Source of the DNA: Alphaproteobacteria bacterium
GTDB lineage: Bacteria > Pseudomonadota > Alphaproteobacteria > Thalassobaculales > Thalassobaculaceae
Length of the DNA stretch: 64,000 nt
Direction: 5' to 3'
Assembly: GCA_024742605.1 (NCBI GenBank)
Contig: JANSYC010000001.1
Location: 1-64,000 of the forward strand
The translations under genes were made by a program, and so were the position numbers. Each line of letters begins with the position of its first letter. Position 1 is the first letter of the stretch. Of this stretch, positions 33,257 to 42,867 are shown piece after piece. Below the pieces are notes generated by a model. It was not told where the DNA came from. It did no database searches and saw only the letters and a list, made by a program, of their open reading frames with translations.

Positions 33257-33283
33257 CCGCCTACCGCATGACATGAGAGAACG

Positions 33284-33315
33284 AAGGGCCGGCCCGCGAG
33301 GATCGGCCCTTTTTC
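33284..33315 (+). terminator. Intrinsic terminator after rplT
   Basis: Stem AAGGGCCG / CGGCCCTT with a 12-base loop and a following run of five T (33310-33314). This is the clearest Rho-independent terminator in the window and separates the ribosomal genes from pheST. Confidence 0.85.
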
Positions 33316-33446
33316 ATTGTGGCGGTATGTCGTGATGTCGAGGGATGCCGTGGGGCTCGCAAAATGCCGATTGACCGGCTAGAAGATCGGTCCGATTTGA
33401 CGGCTCGATGGCAGATGTGGAACGGGCGACGACCCGGGGGATGACG

Positions 33447-34517
33447 ATGGATACAGTCGATAGCTTGCGCGACGAACTTCTGGGCGCGGTGTCCGCCGCC
33501 GATGGGCTTGACGCGCTCGACCAGGTGCGGATCACCGCCCTGGGCAAGAAGGGCCGGATCACGGAGCAGATGAAGGGACTGGGCGCCCTCGACCCCGAGG
33601 CGCGGCGCGAGGCCGGCCAGATGCTGAATGCCCTGAAGGACGAGGTCGCGGCGGCGCTCGAGGCCCGCAAGGCGGATCTGGCAAGCGGTGCTCTCGATGC
33701 GAAACTGGCATCCGAGACCCTGGACGTCACCCTGCCGGCCCGGTTCGAGGCGCGCGGCCGAATCCATCCGATCACCCAGACCATCGACGAGCTGACCGCG
33801 ATCTTCACCGAGATGGGCTTCACCGTCGCCGACGGCCCGAACATCGAAAGCGACTACTATAACTTCGAGGCGCTGAACTTTCCGCCGGACCACCCGGCCC
33901 GGCAGGAGCACGATACCTTCTACATGGCCCCCGACGCGGACGGCGAACGCAAGGTTCTGCGCACCCATACAAGCCCCGTGCAGGTCCGCCATATGGAAAA
34001 GAACACCCCGCCGATCCGGATCATCATTCCAGGCCGCACCTACCGGTCCGACCACGACGCCACCCATTCGCCCATGTTCCATCAGGTCGAGGGGCTGGTG
34101 ATCGATAAGAAGACCCATATGGGCCACCTGAAGGGCTGTCTGACCGATTTCTGCCGCGCCTTCTTCAAGGTCGACGACCTGCCGCTGCGCTTCCGGCCCT
34201 CCTACTTCCCGTTCACCGAGCCCTCGGCCGAGGTCGATATCGGCTGCTCCCGCAAGGGTGGCGGGCTGACCATCGGCGCCGGCGGTGACTGGCTGGAGAT
34301 CCTGGGCTCCGGCATGGTGCATCCGAACGTCCTGCGCCATGCGGGGATCGATCCGACCGAGTATCAGGGCTTCGCCTTCGGCATGGGGATCGAGCGGATC
34401 GCCATGCTGAAATACGGCATCCCGGATCTGCGGCCGTTCTATGACAGCGACGTGCGGTGGATGCGCCATTACGGCTTCGTGCCGATCGCGCAACCGAATG
34501 TGGCGGGAGGGCTCTGA
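33447..34517 (+). CDS. pheS: Phenylalanyl-tRNA synthetase alpha subunit
   Basis: 356 residues from the ATG at 33447, which has GGGGG about 8 bases upstream; 33441 and 33408 are other starts. N-terminal coiled coil (about 1-90), then the class II catalytic core: motif 1 region [19 protein letters not shown], motif 2 [13 protein letters not shown]...[24 protein letters not shown], and motif 3 [10 protein letters not shown]. It charges tRNA-Phe as an alpha2-beta2 enzyme with PheT. Confidence 0.96.
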
Positions 34518-34520
34518 GCC

Positions 34521-36923
34521 ATGAAGATCACCCTTGGCTGGCTGAAACAGCACCTGGACACCGACGCCACCCTGGAGCAGGTGACCGACCAGTTGACCGC
34601 CCTCGGCCTTGAGGTCGAAGGGGTCGAGGACCGGGCGGCATCGCTCAAGGATTTCCGCATCGCCCATGTGGAAGAGGCGGTCCAGCACCCGAATGCCGAC
34701 CGGCTGCGGGTCTGCCGCGTCAACACCGGCGACGAGACCGTCCAGGTGGTCTGCGGGGCGCCGAATGCGCGCACCGGCATGAAGGGCGTGTTCGCCCCGC
34801 CGGGCAGTCATGTCCCCGGCACCGATCTGCTGCTCAAGAAGGGCAAGATCCGGGGCGAGGACTCCAACGGCATGCTCCTGAGCGAGCGCGAGCTCGGTCT
34901 CAGCGACGATCACGACGGCATCATCGAAGTCCCGGACGACGCCCCGGTCGGCACACCCTACGCGGTCTGGGCCGGACTGGACGATCCGGTGATCGACATC
35001 GGCATCACCCCGAACCGGGGCGACTGTTTGGGCGTGCGCGGCATCGCCCGCGACCTGGCCGCCGCCGGTCTCGGGACCCTCAAGCCGCTGGATCTCACAC
35101 CGGTCAAGGGCAGCTTCAAGAGCCCGATGACCTGGACTGTGGATCTGCCGGCGGACAAGCGGCATCTGGCGCCGATCATCGCCGGTCGCTATTTCCGCGG
35201 CGTGACCAACGGCCCCAGCCCGGACTGGATGCAGGAGCGGCTGCGCGCGGTCGGCCTGCGCCCGATCTCGGCTCTGGTGGACATCACCAACTACGTGATG
35301 ATGGATCTGGGCCGCCCGCTGCACGCCTATGACGCCGAGAAGGTCGAGGGCGGCATCACCGTCCGGCTGGCGAAGTCGGGCGAAAGGTATCTGGCCCTGA
35401 ACGGCAGGGAGTACACATTCGACGACAGCATGCTGGTGCTGGCCGACGCGCATGGGCCGGACGACATGGCCGGCATCATGGGCGGTGAGAAGACCGGCTG
35501 TTCGGAGACGACGACCGAGATGTTCCTCGAGATCGCGATCTTCGATCCGGTCAGCGTCGCCGCCACCGGCCGCAAGCTGACGGTGAACTCCGACGCCCGC
35601 TATCGGTTCGAGCGCGGGCTGGACCAGACCGGACCGTTCTGGGGTAACGAGATCGCAACCCGCATGATCCTGGAGATCTGCGGCGGCGAGGCGAGCGAGC
35701 CCGTGGTGGTCGGCTCGGAGCCGGATTGGCGCCGTCAGGTTCCCCTGCGGTATTCCCGGATCAAGCAGCTCTGCGGCGTCGACGTGCCGGAAGAGGAGGC
35801 CACACGCATTCTCGGCACCCTCGGCTTCGAGGTCGAAGGGGTGGGCGAGACCATGTCGGTCACCCCGCCGCCCTGGCGCAACGACATCGACGGCGAAGCC
35901 GATCTTGTCGAGGACGTCGTGCGCGTCTTCGGCTTCGACAAGATTCCCTCGGTCGCCATGGACCGCCTGGGCGTGGTGCCGCAACCGGCCCTGACCGCCC
36001 TGCAGAACCGGCATCGTCTGGCCCGACGGGCGCTGACCGCGCGCGGCATGCTGGAAGCGGTGACCTTCTCGTTCCTGCCGCATCGCGAGGCCGATCTGTT
36101 CGGCGGGGCCAAGCCCGAGCTGATGGTCGCCAACCCGATCTCGGCGGAGCTGGACGCCATGCGGCCCGCGATCCTGCCGAACCTGCTGTCGGCGGCGGCG
36201 CGCAATGCCAATCAGGGCTTCCACGATCTGGCGATCTTCGAGGTCGGTCCCGAATTCAAGGGAGACCGGCCCGAGGATCAGATCACGGTGGCGAGCGGTC
36301 TGCGGCACGGCCGCACCGGTCCGCGCGACTGGCGCCAATCCGACCGTCCGGTCGATCTCTACGATGCCAAGGCCGATGTGCTGGAACTGCTGGACATGCT
36401 GGAAGCACCGACCGGCAATCTCCAGACCTTCACCGACGATCTGCCGTCCTGGTACCACCCGGGACGGGCCGGAACCCTCAAGCTGGGTCCCAAGGTGATG
36501 GCGCGCTTCGGCGAACTGCACCCCAGCATCGTGGCGTTCTACGACCTGCGCGGCCCGGCGGTCGGGTTCGAGGTCTATCTGGACGACGTGCCGCTGCCGA
36601 AATCCAAGGGCACCTCGCGCCCGCTGCTGGAGCTGATTCCGTTCCAGCCGGTGACGCGCGACTTCGCCTTCCTGGTCGCCTCCGACGTGCCGGCCGAGAA
36701 GATCGCGCGGGCGGCAGCCGGGGCCGACAAGGCGCTGGTCGATCAGGTCCACGTGTTCGACGAGTACACCGGCAAGGGCGTGCCCGAAGGCCGGAAATCG
36801 ATCGCCATCGAGGTCCGCCTGCAGCCCCGCGACGCCACCCTGACCGAAGAGCAACTCGAAGCCGCCTCGGCCAAGATCGTGGCCGCGGTCGAGAAGCAGA
36901 CCAGCGGGGTATTGCGGGGGTAG
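34521..36923 (+). CDS. pheT: Phenylalanyl-tRNA synthetase beta subunit
   Basis: 800 residues, the normal length. Domains in order: N-terminal region and tRNA-binding OB fold (FRIAHVEEAVQHPNADRLRVCRVNTG...VVCGAPNARTGMKG, residues about 40-150), B3/B4 editing domain (GLRPISALVDITNYVMMDLGRPLHAYDAEKV), B5 domain, synthetase core-like domain, and the C-terminal ferredoxin-fold anticodon-binding domain (FQPVTRDFAFLVASDVPAEKIARA). It starts 3 bases after pheS. Partner of PheS. Confidence 0.96.
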   Translation: MKITLGWLKQHLDTDATLEQVTDQLTALGLEVEGVEDRAASLKDFRIAHVEEAVQHPNADRLRVCRVNTGDETVQVVCGAPNARTGMKGVFAPPGSHVPGTDLLLKKGKIRGEDSNGMLLSERELGLSDDHDGIIEVPDDAPVGTPYAVWAGLDDPVIDIGITPNRGDCLGVRGIARDLAAAGLGTLKPLDLTPVKGSFKSPMTWTVDLPADKRHLAPIIAGRYFRGVTNGPSPDWMQERLRAVGLRPISALVDITNYVMMDLGRPLHAYDAEKVEGGITVRLAKSGERYLALNGREYTFDDSMLVLADAHGPDDMAGIMGGEKTGCSETTTEMFLEIAIFDPVSVAATGRKLTVNSDARYRFERGLDQTGPFWGNEIATRMILEICGGEASEPVVVGSEPDWRRQVPLRYSRIKQLCGVDVPEEEATRILGTLGFEVEGVGETMSVTPPPWRNDIDGEADLVEDVVRVFGFDKIPSVAMDRLGVVPQPALTALQNRHRLARRALTARGMLEAVTFSFLPHREADLFGGAKPELMVANPISAELDAMRPAILPNLLSAAARNANQGFHDLAIFEVGPEFKGDRPEDQITVASGLRHGRTGPRDWRQSDRPVDLYDAKADVLELLDMLEAPTGNLQTFTDDLPSWYHPGRAGTLKLGPKVMARFGELHPSIVAFYDLRGPAVGFEVYLDDVPLPKSKGTSRPLLELIPFQPVTRDFAFLVASDVPAEKIARAAAGADKALVDQVHVFDEYTGKGVPEGRKSIAIEVRLQPRDATLTEEQLEAASAKIVAAVEKQTSGVLRG

Positions 36924-36930
36924 CGTCTCA

Positions 36931-36965
36931 GGTGTGCCACGCGGGGCGGTCTCGCGTGGCATACC
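36931..36965 (+). terminator. Hairpin after pheT
   Basis: An 8-bp perfect stem TGCCACGC / GCGTGGCA, extended by GGTG/TACC pairing to about 12 bp, with an 11-base loop. No T-tract follows. It lies 8 bases after the pheT stop and probably marks the end of the pheST message. Confidence 0.6.
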
Positions 36966-37145
36966 CTCTGACTGCCCATCGTGGCCCAACAGACGGCCGT
37001 CGCACATAGAACATTCGATTTTCCAAACACGACATCGACTGCAAATCTAGGTGATAAAACGCTTTTTCACCGACGATCCCGCTTGCCCGCGCGCCGAACT
37101 CGGCCTTACGGTTTTCCAACGCAGATCGAGCGGAGGAGGATCGCC

Positions 37146-38324
37146 ATGGTGCCATTGGCGCGGACCGCCGGAGCGGCAGGTATGACCTGCCGGTTCAATC
37201 CCACCACCGGCTGTCTGATCCTGAGCGGTGCGACCGGCTCGGTCCAGCTGCCGCCGCTCTGGCTGCGGGAGCGGAGCGAGGCGCCGGACCAGCTCGATCA
37301 CGCCAGCCACCAGCGCTATTTCGATCCGACCCGGCTGCCGCCCGATCTCGCGATCACCGACGCGCAGCCGTCCGCAGAGGGGGTCGCGCTCAGTTTTTCA
37401 GACGGGCATTTCTGGAGCTTCGACCCGACCCTGCTGGGGATCGAAGCCGGGCTGCTGCCGGATCCACTGGCGCTGCCGATGCCGGAGGCCTGGACGGCGG
37501 CAAATATGGAGCTGCCGATCGCCGACTGGCAGGCGCTGGACGATCCGGCAGAGATGCGGGCGCTTCTGGCCGGGTTCTTCCGCACCGGGGTGGTGGTGCT
37601 GCGCGGCACGCCGGTCACGGAAGACAGCCTGCTGGACATCGCCCGACGGTTCGGGCCGATCCGGGAGACCAATTGGGGCCGGCTGTTCAATGTCCGGACC
37701 GAGGTGGCGGCCTCCGATCTGGCCTATACCGGCAGGGCGCTGACCGCCCATACCGACAATCCCTACCGGCGTTCGGTTCCGGGCATCCAGTTCCTGCACT
37801 GTCTGATGAACGAGGCGACCGGCGGGGAGAGCACGGTGGTCGACGGCTTGGCGATCGCCGAGGCCCTGCGGGCGGAGTCGCCGGAGCTGTTCCGGGTCGC
37901 AACCACCCTGCCGATCTCCTACCGCTATCGCTCGGACAGCGTCGACGACCGGATGGACGCGCCGATGCTTGAGATCGCGCCGGACGGGCGGCTGAAGCAT
38001 ATCCGGCTGTCGACCCGGCTCGATTTCCCGCCGGCGGCCGACCCGGAGACCCTGGCCGCGTTCTTCGAGGCCCGGCGGCGGCTGGCCGGGCTGGCTGCCG
38101 ATCCGGCCTTCGAGGTGGCCTTCAAGATGCGGCCGGGCGACTGTCTGATGATGGACAATCACCGGACCCTGCACGGGCGCGGCGCCTTCGCCGAGGACGG
38201 GCGCCGGTTCCTGCAGGGCTGCTATATCGACCATGACGGCCCGGAATGCCTCTATCGGGTCACCACAAGGCGCCTGTTCGAGACAGGTGGTTCGGGCGTG
38301 ACGGCCGGGGCCGAGTCGTCGTAG
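37146..38324 (+). CDS. tmpA: TmpA-like Fe(II)/2-oxoglutarate-dependent dioxygenase (2-trimethylaminoethylphosphonate hydroxylase)
   Basis: 392 residues from the ATG at 37146, which follows GGAGGAGG. TauD/TfdA-fold enzyme with the N-terminal DUF971-like domain of gamma-butyrobetaine hydroxylases (PPLWLRERSE near residue 40). Iron ligands fit H202-x-D204 (TAHTDNPYRRS) and H343 (DNHRTLHGRGAF), with Arg345 for 2-oxoglutarate. On its own it could be a betaine or trimethyllysine hydroxylase. The immediate partner is a PhnZ-like HD oxygenase, the pairing known for TmpA/TmpB, which hydroxylates 2-(trimethylamino)ethylphosphonate before C-P cleavage. Function is inferred from the pair. Confidence 0.7.
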   Translation: MVPLARTAGAAGMTCRFNPTTGCLILSGATGSVQLPPLWLRERSEAPDQLDHASHQRYFDPTRLPPDLAITDAQPSAEGVALSFSDGHFWSFDPTLLGIEAGLLPDPLALPMPEAWTAANMELPIADWQALDDPAEMRALLAGFFRTGVVVLRGTPVTEDSLLDIARRFGPIRETNWGRLFNVRTEVAASDLAYTGRALTAHTDNPYRRSVPGIQFLHCLMNEATGGESTVVDGLAIAEALRAESPELFRVATTLPISYRYRSDSVDDRMDAPMLEIAPDGRLKHIRLSTRLDFPPAADPETLAAFFEARRRLAGLAADPAFEVAFKMRPGDCLMMDNHRTLHGRGAFAEDGRRFLQGCYIDHDGPECLYRVTTRRLFETGGSGVTAGAESS

Positions 38325-38355
38325 GCTGACCTGGACGAGTCAGCGGAGGTTGGGC

Positions 38356-38964
38356 ATGGACACGGTTTCCTTCACCAGGATGAGCGACGGCACCAAGGCC
38401 GATTACGACCTGCTGCACGCCCGCGAGCAGCAGTTCATCGCCGCTCTGCCCGAGCGGATCATGACCCATCTGAAACTGCTGGAGGACTCCACCAGCGGCT
38501 ATCAGATCAGTCGGCTCGACCACTCGCTGCAGACCGCCACACGGGCGGTGAAGGACGGCGCGGATGTGGACTGGATCGTGACGGCCCTGGTGCACGATAT
38601 CGGCGACATGCTGGCCCCGGTGAACCACGACACCGTGGCGGCCGCGATCCTGGCCCCCTATGTGCGGGCCGAATGCACCTGGGTGCTGCGCCACCACGGG
38701 ATGTTCCAGCTGAAGTATTACGGCGCCCATACCGGACAGAATCCGGACACTCGTGAGCGGTTCAAGGATCACCCGAACTACGCGGCCTGCGTGGCGTTCT
38801 GCGAGCTCTGGGACCAGACCAGCTTCGACCCCGCCTACCCGACCTGGACGCTGGAGCAGTTCGAACCGCATGTCCGGGAGGTGTTCACCCGGGAGGCCTG
38901 GGACCCCGCCGTGATCCGCGAGGGGGTGCAGGTGCCGCTGGTCACCGCCCAGGCGGCGGAATAG
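38356..38964 (+). CDS. tmpB: TmpB/PhnZ-like HD-domain mixed-valence diiron oxygenase
   Basis: 202 residues from the ATG at 38356 with GGAGG upstream. HD-domain oxygenase: LDHSLQTATRAVKDGADVDWIVTALVHDIGDMLAPVNHDTVAAAILAPYV, with H56, H80-D81 and H91, then RHHGMFQLKYYGAHTG and CELWDQTSFDP carrying later His and Asp ligands. This order is that of PhnZ, which cleaves C-P bonds oxidatively. TmpB acts on 1-hydroxy-2-(trimethylamino)ethylphosphonate and releases glycine betaine and phosphate. It follows the dioxygenase gene by 31 bases. Phosphonate transport genes are not adjacent. Confidence 0.7.
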   Translation: MDTVSFTRMSDGTKADYDLLHAREQQFIAALPERIMTHLKLLEDSTSGYQISRLDHSLQTATRAVKDGADVDWIVTALVHDIGDMLAPVNHDTVAAAILAPYVRAECTWVLRHHGMFQLKYYGAHTGQNPDTRERFKDHPNYAACVAFCELWDQTSFDPAYPTWTLEQFEPHVREVFTREAWDPAVIREGVQVPLVTAQAAE

Positions 38965-41953: not shown

Positions 41954-42796
41954 CTAGCCGTGTCCGACCTCGAAATCGTTCTTGCCACACAGATCCCGGC
42001 CGCGCATCAGCCACAGGGCCCGGGTGGTGAAATCGACCTGGTTGCCGCCGCGCGCCTGAAGCTGGCTGCCGTAGCCGTGGTCGAAATGGGAACTGGTCGG
42101 CATGTAGCGGCAGACATAGCCGGCGCGCCGCTTGTCGGACCGGTTCGGCTCCGAGCCGTGCACCAGATAGACGTCATGCAATGAGAGCTGTCCGGCCTTG
42201 AGCACGATGTCGTGGGCCTCGGCCTCGTCGAATTCGGACGGGTCCAGTTCCTGATTCAGGACCAGATCCGCGCTGTCATTCTGATTGTGCGCCCGCAATC
42301 TCTGGCTCTTGTGGGAGCCGGGAATCACCCGCAGACAGCCGTTCTCCGGTGTCGCATCATCGAGCGCGATCCAGGCCGAACAGGTGGCCAGCGGCTTGAT
42401 CGGCCAATACTCGCCATCCTGATGCCAGGGCACGCGCTTGCCGGTCCCGGCCGGCTTGCCGAACACGGTCGTGCCCCACAACAGAAAGTCGGGGCCGATC
42501 ACCTGGCCGACCATGTCGAGGATTTCGGGAATCCGCGCGAAGTCGAGCCAGCGATTGTCGCCCTTCAGGCCCTGGGTGCCGCCGGCGACGATGTGCGGAC
42601 AGAACATGCTGTCCCGGCTGACCCCGTCATTGCCCGACAGCAGGGTATCGAGCGCCGTGCGCATCTCGACGAGCAGATGGTCCGGCAAGCGCCACTCGGG
42701 CGTGACGTAACCGTGTTCTTCGTAATGGGCGATCTCGGCGGGTGACAGAAGATGGGATGCCCCGGTCCGGTCCGGGTCCCGAAGTTGCGTGGTCAT
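41954..42796 (-). CDS. Phytanoyl-CoA dioxygenase (PhyH) family protein
   Basis: 280 residues from the ATG at 42796, with GGGAGGA upstream. PhyH-type Fe(II)/2-oxoglutarate oxygenase: EIAHYEEHGYVTPEWRLPDHLLVEM start, HxD ligands in RVPWHQDGEYWPI, WIALDDATPENGCLRVIPGSHK, and the last His and Arg in LHDVYLVHGSEPNRSDKRRAGYVCRYMP. These enzymes hydroxylate small molecules such as ectoine, alkaloids or phytanic CoA derivatives. Substrate unknown. A short gene for a small membrane protein lies upstream on the same strand. Confidence 0.85.
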   Translation of the reverse strand: MTTQLRDPDRTGASHLLSPAEIAHYEEHGYVTPEWRLPDHLLVEMRTALDTLLSGNDGVSRDSMFCPHIVAGGTQGLKGDNRWLDFARIPEILDMVGQVIGPDFLLWGTTVFGKPAGTGKRVPWHQDGEYWPIKPLATCSAWIALDDATPENGCLRVIPGSHKSQRLRAHNQNDSADLVLNQELDPSEFDEAEAHDIVLKAGQLSLHDVYLVHGSEPNRSDKRRAGYVCRYMPTSSHFDHGYGSQLQARGGNQVDFTTRALWLMRGRDLCGKNDFEVGHG

Positions 42797-42867
42797 GGCA
42801 ATCCTCCCTCCCGCTTCGATCGCGGGTTGACGGTATGCTAGGCCACGATCGGTCGCAGGGGAACAGC

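Follow-up and report, generated by a model that had tools for sequence, protein, structure and literature searches.

TmpA and TmpB act in succession on 2-(trimethylamino)ethylphosphonate: TmpA hydroxylates it, and TmpB then cleaves the C-P bond to give phosphate and glycine betaine; environmental surveys take their genes, like those of PhnY*/PhnZ, as indicators of phosphonate breakdown (sections of PMC10574752). PhnZ and TmpB use a loop with the signature YxxE in substrate binding, which is missing in MIOX, an enzyme that cleaves a C-C bond (sections of PMC8177086). We analysed a window of 64,000 nucleotides from an alphaproteobacterium of the Thalassobaculaceae (assembly GCA_024742605.1, contig JANSYC010000001.1, positions 1 to 64,000). 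In it, a gene for a 2-oxoglutarate/Fe(II) dioxygenase of the TmpA/BBOX family (P0001, 37146 to 38324, plus strand, 392 amino acids, ATG at 37146) is followed, on the same strand and after 31 bases, by a gene for an HD-domain diiron oxygenase-like protein (P0002, 38356 to 38964, 202 amino acids, ATG at 38356). The initial annotation had predicted a dioxygenase followed by a PhnZ-type HD gene at 37146 to 38964, where both open reading frames were indeed found, and had read them as a TmpA/TmpB-like pair. Of that reading, the architecture (a 2-oxoglutarate hydroxylase, then an HD oxygenase), the PhnZ-type fold and ligands and a trimethylammonium-type substrate found support, and the TmpA/TmpB identity and the phosphonate substrate did not. 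Judged from the sequences, the dioxygenase belongs to an uncharacterised sister family to TmpA with a rebuilt substrate pocket, and the pair would be a catabolic unit of two oxidative steps, a counterpart to TmpA/TmpB with a different substrate; we give this reading a probability of about one half. The substrate is probably no phosphonate.

P0001 scored 177.8 bits against the TauD model PF02668 and stayed below the cut-offs of three narrower models, with 344.2 bits on the NCBI TmpA model NF049936 (cut-off 400), 252 bits on the butyrobetaine dioxygenase model TIGR02409 (414.75) and 160.2 bits on the trimethyllysine dioxygenase model TIGR02410 (268.3). Among PDB chains, it matched TmpA (6npb) with 215.6 bits and BBOX (4bg1) with 104.9 bits. 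By these scores the description as a gamma-butyrobetaine-hydroxylase-like dioxygenase was correct, in that the protein is a TauD-family enzyme of the butyrobetaine-hydroxylase/TmpA kind. A tree was built from 71 sequences, labelled beforehand by the residue at the place of BBOX position 191; it omits additional duplicates of loci already typed, L143 among them, and an earlier dioxygenase alignment had passed over 11 tblastn rows as duplicates or for stops. The 43 sequences with Asp at this place (43/43; 'D-type') formed one clade (support 100/100), sister to a TmpA clade of 14 sequences (97/95), all with Asn (14/14), which contains the Leisingera caerulea TmpA and leaves P0001 outside; 14 BBOX-like sequences stood apart (100/99). 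On the TmpA model, five TmpA-signature controls from other genomes scored between 437 and 558 bits, 5/5 above its cut-off.

TmpA binds phosphonate via N187, N287 and R288, and BBOX binds a phosphinate analogue via N191 and N293 (sections of PMC9296572). With an offset of 6 between the TmpA chain and the published numbering, deduced from the alignments, the TmpA contacts correspond to D191, T290 and R291 of P0001, so that two of the three are altered. D191 and R291 were invariant in all 24 enzymes aligned, namely P0001 plus 23 that come from HD-gene loci. The aromatic places W177, F181, Y194 and Y360 indicate that the trimethylammonium cage is kept, and the alignment gives H202, D204 and H343 as iron ligands. 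In TMLH, specificity is thought to be due to Asp231, homologous to BBOX Asn191 and binding the alpha-ammonium group (part of a review, PMC7764450); the residue of this type is Asp in all 43 D-clade sequences. A small branch of the clade (L236 from G158, L237 from G301 and L007 from G003) departs from these aromatic cage residues (W-A-D-M/Q or W-E-D-L), and one of its members is divergent from a cluster of BKACE and carnitine-dehydrogenase-like genes.

The HD protein was recognised by the general HD model (30.4 bits, cut-off 22) and marginally, over 58 residues, by the MIOX model PF05153 (26.6 bits, cut-off 25). Its scores on the phosphonate-related models were weak, with 32.2 bits on Phn-HD, 24.2 on HMP-PhnZ and 24.0 on the TmpB model NF049941, and none of the cut-offs (214.6, 300 and 300) was reached. 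The HD neighbours of the five TmpA-signature controls scored 169 to 365 bits on the TmpB model (332.8 and 364.7 pass; three lie at 169 to 222) and 196 to 215 on Phn-HD. The metal ligands of P0002 follow the order H56...H80-D81...H91...H114...D153, all six being invariant in 52/52 aligned sequences (the alignment, A2, holds 51 of 75 HD references; five HD rows had been dropped for stops inside the extended stretch). A structure predicted from 52 sequences (mean predicted local distance difference test, pLDDT, 95.4) was closest to PhnZ (Z 16.9, root-mean-square deviation 3.3 over 153 residues) and TmpB (Z 16.0, 3.0 over 154 residues), followed by MIOX (Z 11.3, 3.2 over 139 residues); the seven top rows, at Z 16.9 to 10.5, were all PhnZ, TmpB or MIOX, and all others were at 8.2 or less. 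The PhnZ-type HD fold with its ligand order, as first annotated, is thus confirmed at the level of ligands and predicted structure.

The substrate side of the HD protein is another matter. The YxxE loop (Y30 and E33 of TmpB) would place Tyr at -10 and Glu at -7 from the first His; 0/52 P0002-family sequences have either residue there, and a Tyr (Tyr49) is fixed at the place of the Glu; five TmpB-type controls have YLGE (4/5) or Y-GE (one). All five also carry a Lys four residues after the fourth His and an Arg three residues ahead of the final metal-binding position. Compared with them, P0002 is short of a loop of some 19 residues and has Q118 (52/52) and E150 (at least 90% of A2) at the Lys and Arg places. 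In PhnZ, the Lys, Arg and loop residues hold the phosphonate, the contacts being K108, S126, Q129 and R158. The claimed identities found no support: for TmpB, 24 bits stand against a cut-off of 300 and YxxE is missing; for TmpA, the sister clade, 344.2 bits against 400 and the Asp and Thr at N187 and N287 all speak against it. The same two replacements, together with a partner that lacks YxxE and falls below the TmpB, HMP-PhnZ and Phn-HD cut-offs, argue against 2-(trimethylamino)ethylphosphonate as the substrate.

A P0002-type HD gene adjoined the dioxygenase gene in 28/42 D-type rows and a TmpB-type HD gene in 0/42, whereas TmpA-type rows had a TmpB-type neighbour in 12/13 and a P0002-type one in 0/13; neither type adjoined any BBOX-like gene (0/13). 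More than half of the 42 D-type rows in this count had been found via the HD gene; of the 17 D-type loci reached via the dioxygenase, 6 had an adjoining P0002-type gene and 0 one of the TmpB type. In each of two genomes, G244 and G311, a D-type pair occurs together with a TmpA-like gene (34% identity) that resembles the L164 gene (same genus, near-equal scores; not typed), so that D-type and TmpA enzymes look like separate systems within one genome.

A collection scan of GTDB genomes gave 597 candidate stretches, of which at least 593 encode relatives of the HD protein; 80 were kept. A homologous dioxygenase was present at 23 of these 80 loci and lay directly upstream in 22/23, about -4 to 106 bases away, and the adjacency is therefore not due to chance. 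The pair-bearing loci belong to Alphaproteobacteria, Comamonadaceae, Halomonas and one actinobacterium, Hellea balneolensis DSM 19091 (L083), Marivibrio halodurans (L072) and Halomonas smyrnensis (L100) being culturable carriers, and a D-type pair with the signature FFDYNSPRD is carried by the Pseudomonas aeruginosa plasmid pF045_1 (L198). Across 387 genomes of the class, the HD family was found in 111 (threshold 1e-30) and a dioxygenase match in 52 (1e-50). With genomes typed by the loci that the dioxygenase search returned, the HD family occurred in 17/18 D-type genomes, 9/12 TmpA-type genomes and 94 of the 369 genomes that are not in the D set. The pair does not occur everywhere: among the relatives first read, the dioxygenase adjoined the HD gene only in the genome studied here and in G001, G003 and G010, and G344 and G406 have both genes, though not together. 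D-type genes also occur in small AT-rich genomes (1.2 to 1.6 Mb; fraction of guanine plus cytosine, GC, 0.28 to 0.36 in the stretches read), with the HD gene adjacent in two of them (G240 and G308).

The neighbours in other lineages point to quaternary ammonium compounds, not phosphorus. Many of them (LysR, some thioesterases and others) were named by eye, and the cluster counts refer to blast clusters in each of which a single member was either checked or identified by eye. In Hellea and other loci, genes close to the pair or to the HD gene encode a BCCT transporter (6 loci), an MttB-like methyltransferase (6), sarcosine-oxidase-type subunits (8 and 7) and a dehydrogenase/GcvT-type protein (4). 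At four burkholderial loci, genes for L-carnitine dehydrogenase (620 bits in L095, cut-off 414), a BKACE-type protein and a thioesterase are divergent from the MFS transporter, D-type and HD genes. In G160, genes for a thioesterase (by eye), a BKACE-type protein and a carnitine-dehydrogenase-like protein (343.8 bits, below the cut-off) adjoin the HD gene; in G158, a D-clade gene is divergent from BKACE (336.5 bits) and dehydrogenase (367.8 bits, below the cut-off) genes. On pF045_1, the pair is directly followed by genes annotated as choline-binding protein, choline dehydrogenase and aldehyde dehydrogenase. This plasmid comes from a cystic-fibrosis lung isolate, and there the D-type pair shares one block with choline uptake and oxidation genes. 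RidA-type, MFS and dimethylsulfoniopropionate (DMSP)-demethylase-type genes lie near the D-type gene in G308, G240 and G051, the DMSP-demethylase type being verified only in G308. No phosphonate genes were seen beside the D-type pairs in the loci read, where most neighbours were named by eye.

HD genes were also found with other partners. Where the D-type dioxygenase was absent, a PhyH-type gene stood directly upstream in 7/57 loci (verified for L139, the others clustering with the L139 gene), and in L075 a Rieske oxygenase, closest to GbcA, is encoded directly upstream. The corresponding gene in L068 proved to encode an AlkZ-like DNA glycosylase, not an oxygenase. Two relatives have a radical-SAM gene adjacent to a P0002-type HD gene (L027, 8839 to 10023; L028, 7270 to 8406). 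A GcvA-like LysR gene, named by eye, is often divergent from the dioxygenase or the PhyH gene (L064, L107, L139, L062, L063, L100, L200 and L211), and this repeated arrangement suggests a regulator shared by both kinds of unit.

Family and active site suggest how the pair would work. The aromatic cage of the dioxygenase would grip a trimethylammonium or like onium group while the chain is hydroxylated with O2 and 2-oxoglutarate. The HD oxygenase, to judge from its fold and ligands, would then use a mixed-valent diiron centre and O2 to turn the C-OH carbon into a carboxylate, cutting the adjacent bond, as PhnZ and TmpB do with C-P and MIOX with C-C. Because the phosphonate-binding residues are replaced in both enzymes, the bond cut is probably C-C. 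Gene neighbourhoods in other lineages suggest that the product would pass into the breakdown of betaine or carnitine. The substrate may have an alpha-amino acid end, since in each protein acidic side chains stand in place of residues of the phosphonate type, and since imines are hydrolysed by RidA proteins; the Asp of the hydroxylase matches the one thought to hold the alpha-ammonium of trimethyllysine in TMLH. Trimethyllysine, the simplest known compound of this sort, is our leading candidate, weakly held. It would be hydroxylated at C3, and cleavage of C2-C3 would give gamma-butyrobetaine and a glyoxylate imine, which would go on to glyoxylate and ammonia and which RidA-type proteins would hydrolyse in some genomes. 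Such a bacterial oxidative route from 3-hydroxy-trimethyllysine remains a tentative and rather doubtful proposal. If it is true, an HD diiron enzyme would do what an aldolase and an aldehyde dehydrogenase do in the carnitine pathway of animals, and the route would extend to tiny AT-rich alphaproteobacterial genomes.

Several observations weigh against this picture of a two-step unit on a new substrate. The HD protein does not need this dioxygenase, 57/80 HD loci having no D-type gene nearby. Conversely, G051, a small AT-rich genome, has a D-type gene and no HD match at 1e-30; there (L208, 7251 to 9513) an enolase-superfamily gene follows the D-type gene, and the RidA and MFS genes are kept. 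Within the window, no gene for carnitine, choline or betaine breakdown adjoins the pair, and the contexts elsewhere conflict, as choline, carnitine and glycine betaine genes are not all derivable from one product. Carnitine dehydrogenase was present in 13/18 D-type genomes and 64/369 others, and was tried as a sign specific to the D type; we rejected it because it is equally frequent in TmpA genomes (11/12). As regards trimethyllysine, the counterpart of TMLH N334 is lost in P0001 (S289 or T290), the nearest characterised relative by score is TmpA and not TMLH (344 against 160 bits), and the route from trimethyllysine to gamma-butyrobetaine calls for a further hydroxylase. Finally, R291 keeps TmpA R288, which a phosphonate could still use.

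This last point bears on the reading that the pair is a divergent TmpA/TmpB after all, converting 2-(trimethylamino)ethylphosphonate into glycine betaine and phosphate. TmpA is the closest characterised enzyme, the gene order is the same, the partner has the PhnZ/TmpB fold, and glycine betaine as product would suit several of the contexts. We nevertheless consider it quite improbable, given the replacement of N187 and N287, the clade-wide Asp, a partner that reaches 24 of 300 bits on the TmpB model and has lost YxxE, the presence in G244 and G311 of the D-type pair beside a TmpA-like gene (untyped, its L164 kind being inferred), and the lack of phosphonate genes beside the pairs read, most neighbours there being eye-named. 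A trimethylammonium carboxylate devoid of an amino group, such as gamma-butyrobetaine or beta-alanine betaine, hydroxylated and afterwards cleaved to glycine betaine and glycolate or CO2, would explain why carnitine-to-betaine genes adjoin D-type or HD genes in several lineages and why glycine-betaine breakdown genes occur in the Hellea loci, and BBOX is the second-nearest family. However, an Asp in the position of BBOX Asn191 should make a carboxylate less favourable, and separate BBOX-like genes are present in several of the same genomes (for example G000, G308 and G160); we regard this substrate as unlikely, if worth keeping in mind.

A sulfonium amino acid is a further candidate. S-methylmethionine, with dimethylsulfonioacetate as product, has the onium group, two carbons and alpha-amino acid end that would fit the cage, D191 and R291; it would fit as well the DMSP-demethylase-family gene near the G308 pair (483 bits, cut-off 410), which counts against a purely quaternary ammonium substrate, and the homocysteine S-methyltransferase-family gene near the L066 pair. 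Most contexts, however, indicate trimethylammonium compounds (choline, carnitine, betaine), and we give this option little credence. It is likewise hard to believe that P0002 is a hydrolase, such as a phosphatase, that stands beside the dioxygenase by accident. Most HD proteins are indeed phosphohydrolases (sections of PMC8177086), and the 57 of 80 loci mentioned above would agree with it, yet the oxygenase set H...HD...H...H...D is fully conserved, the structural neighbours at Z 16.9 to 10.5 are oxygenases only, and the PhyH-type (7/57) and Rieske (L075) genes put a different oxygenase directly upstream in other loci. The two-step oxidative unit with a non-phosphonate substrate remains the reading that we prefer.

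As to the setting of the pair, likely ribosome-binding sites were read from the sequence six bases before each ATG: GCGGAGGAGG for the dioxygenase gene (37130 to 37139, plus strand) and GCGGAGG for the HD gene (38343 to 38349, plus strand). The genes pheST lie upstream, as first annotated, and chorismate-mutase-type, hisC-type and tyrA-type genes downstream, all named by reading the sequences. The C-P lyase gene phnJ of the same genome is on a different contig (C19). The pair had been suspected of being a recent arrival, a suspicion that found no support: third-position GC is 0.868 and 0.892 for the dioxygenase and HD genes, matching pheT (0.881) and tyrA (0.883), and the sister species (G001) carries the same locus. 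Among 16 loci fetched around the chorismate-mutase-type gene, the one studied here included, pheT was found in 0/16, as the flank of about 1.5 kb is shorter than its distance of 2.2 kb here. At 3 kb downstream from the pair, the minus strand encodes a PhyH-family dioxygenase (41954 to 42853); the sister species has an ortholog of this gene that groups with the PhyH genes found immediately upstream of P0002-type HD genes at 7 other loci. Opposite pheST, an open frame of 1248 codons (33261 to 37007, minus strand) looks like an antisense artefact of GC-rich DNA.

In the open-access literature, we found no description of this HD family, this clade or a trimethyllysine-cleaving pair. A large family that is sister to the known one, alike in gene order and probably different in substrate, can mislead the annotation of phosphonate markers, and a route by which quaternary ammonium compounds are catabolised would stay hidden. 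If the bond cut is C-C, the HD proteins would join MIOX as a family of C-C-cleaving HD oxygenases, with a choline-like or amino-acid compound as substrate.

Compared with TmpA/TmpB of L. caerulea (PDB 6npb and 6npa), the pair shares gene order, enzyme classes, the HTDNPY motif, R288, the cage residues F181, Y194 and Y360 (P0001 numbers), and the HD fold and metal ligands. It differs in the separate sister clade of P0001, in N187 to D191 and N287 to T290, in a P0002 without YxxE, the TmpB-type Lys and Arg or the loop of about 19 residues, and in scores below both NCBI equivalog cut-offs. The PhnY-type partner of PhnZ is a PhyH-family enzyme. With PhnY*/PhnZ, which acts on 2-aminoethylphosphonate, P0002 shares the PhnZ fold (Z 16.9) and ligand order, but P0001 is of the TauD family, identity is 18 to 21% and YxxE is absent; the P0002 family does, however, follow a PhyH-type gene in the 7 other loci. 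P0001 has the family, aromatic cage and iron ligands of BBOX (104.9 bits to 4bg1), with N191 changed to D, W181 to F, Y205 to N, and N292 and N293 to S and T, and BBOX-like sequences form a separate tree group with an HD neighbour in 0/13. TMLH likewise has Asp where BBOX has residue 191, a position thought to bind the alpha-ammonium, whereas P0001 reaches 160.2 bits of the required 268.3, is missing the N334 counterpart and adjoins an HD oxygenase that is not in the known pathway. MIOX, lastly, has in common with P0002 the HD diiron oxygenase fold (Z 11.3), the absence of YxxE and the precedent of C-C cleavage, and differs in that P0002 is shorter and barely reaches the PF05153 cut-off (26.6 bits against 25, along 58 residues).

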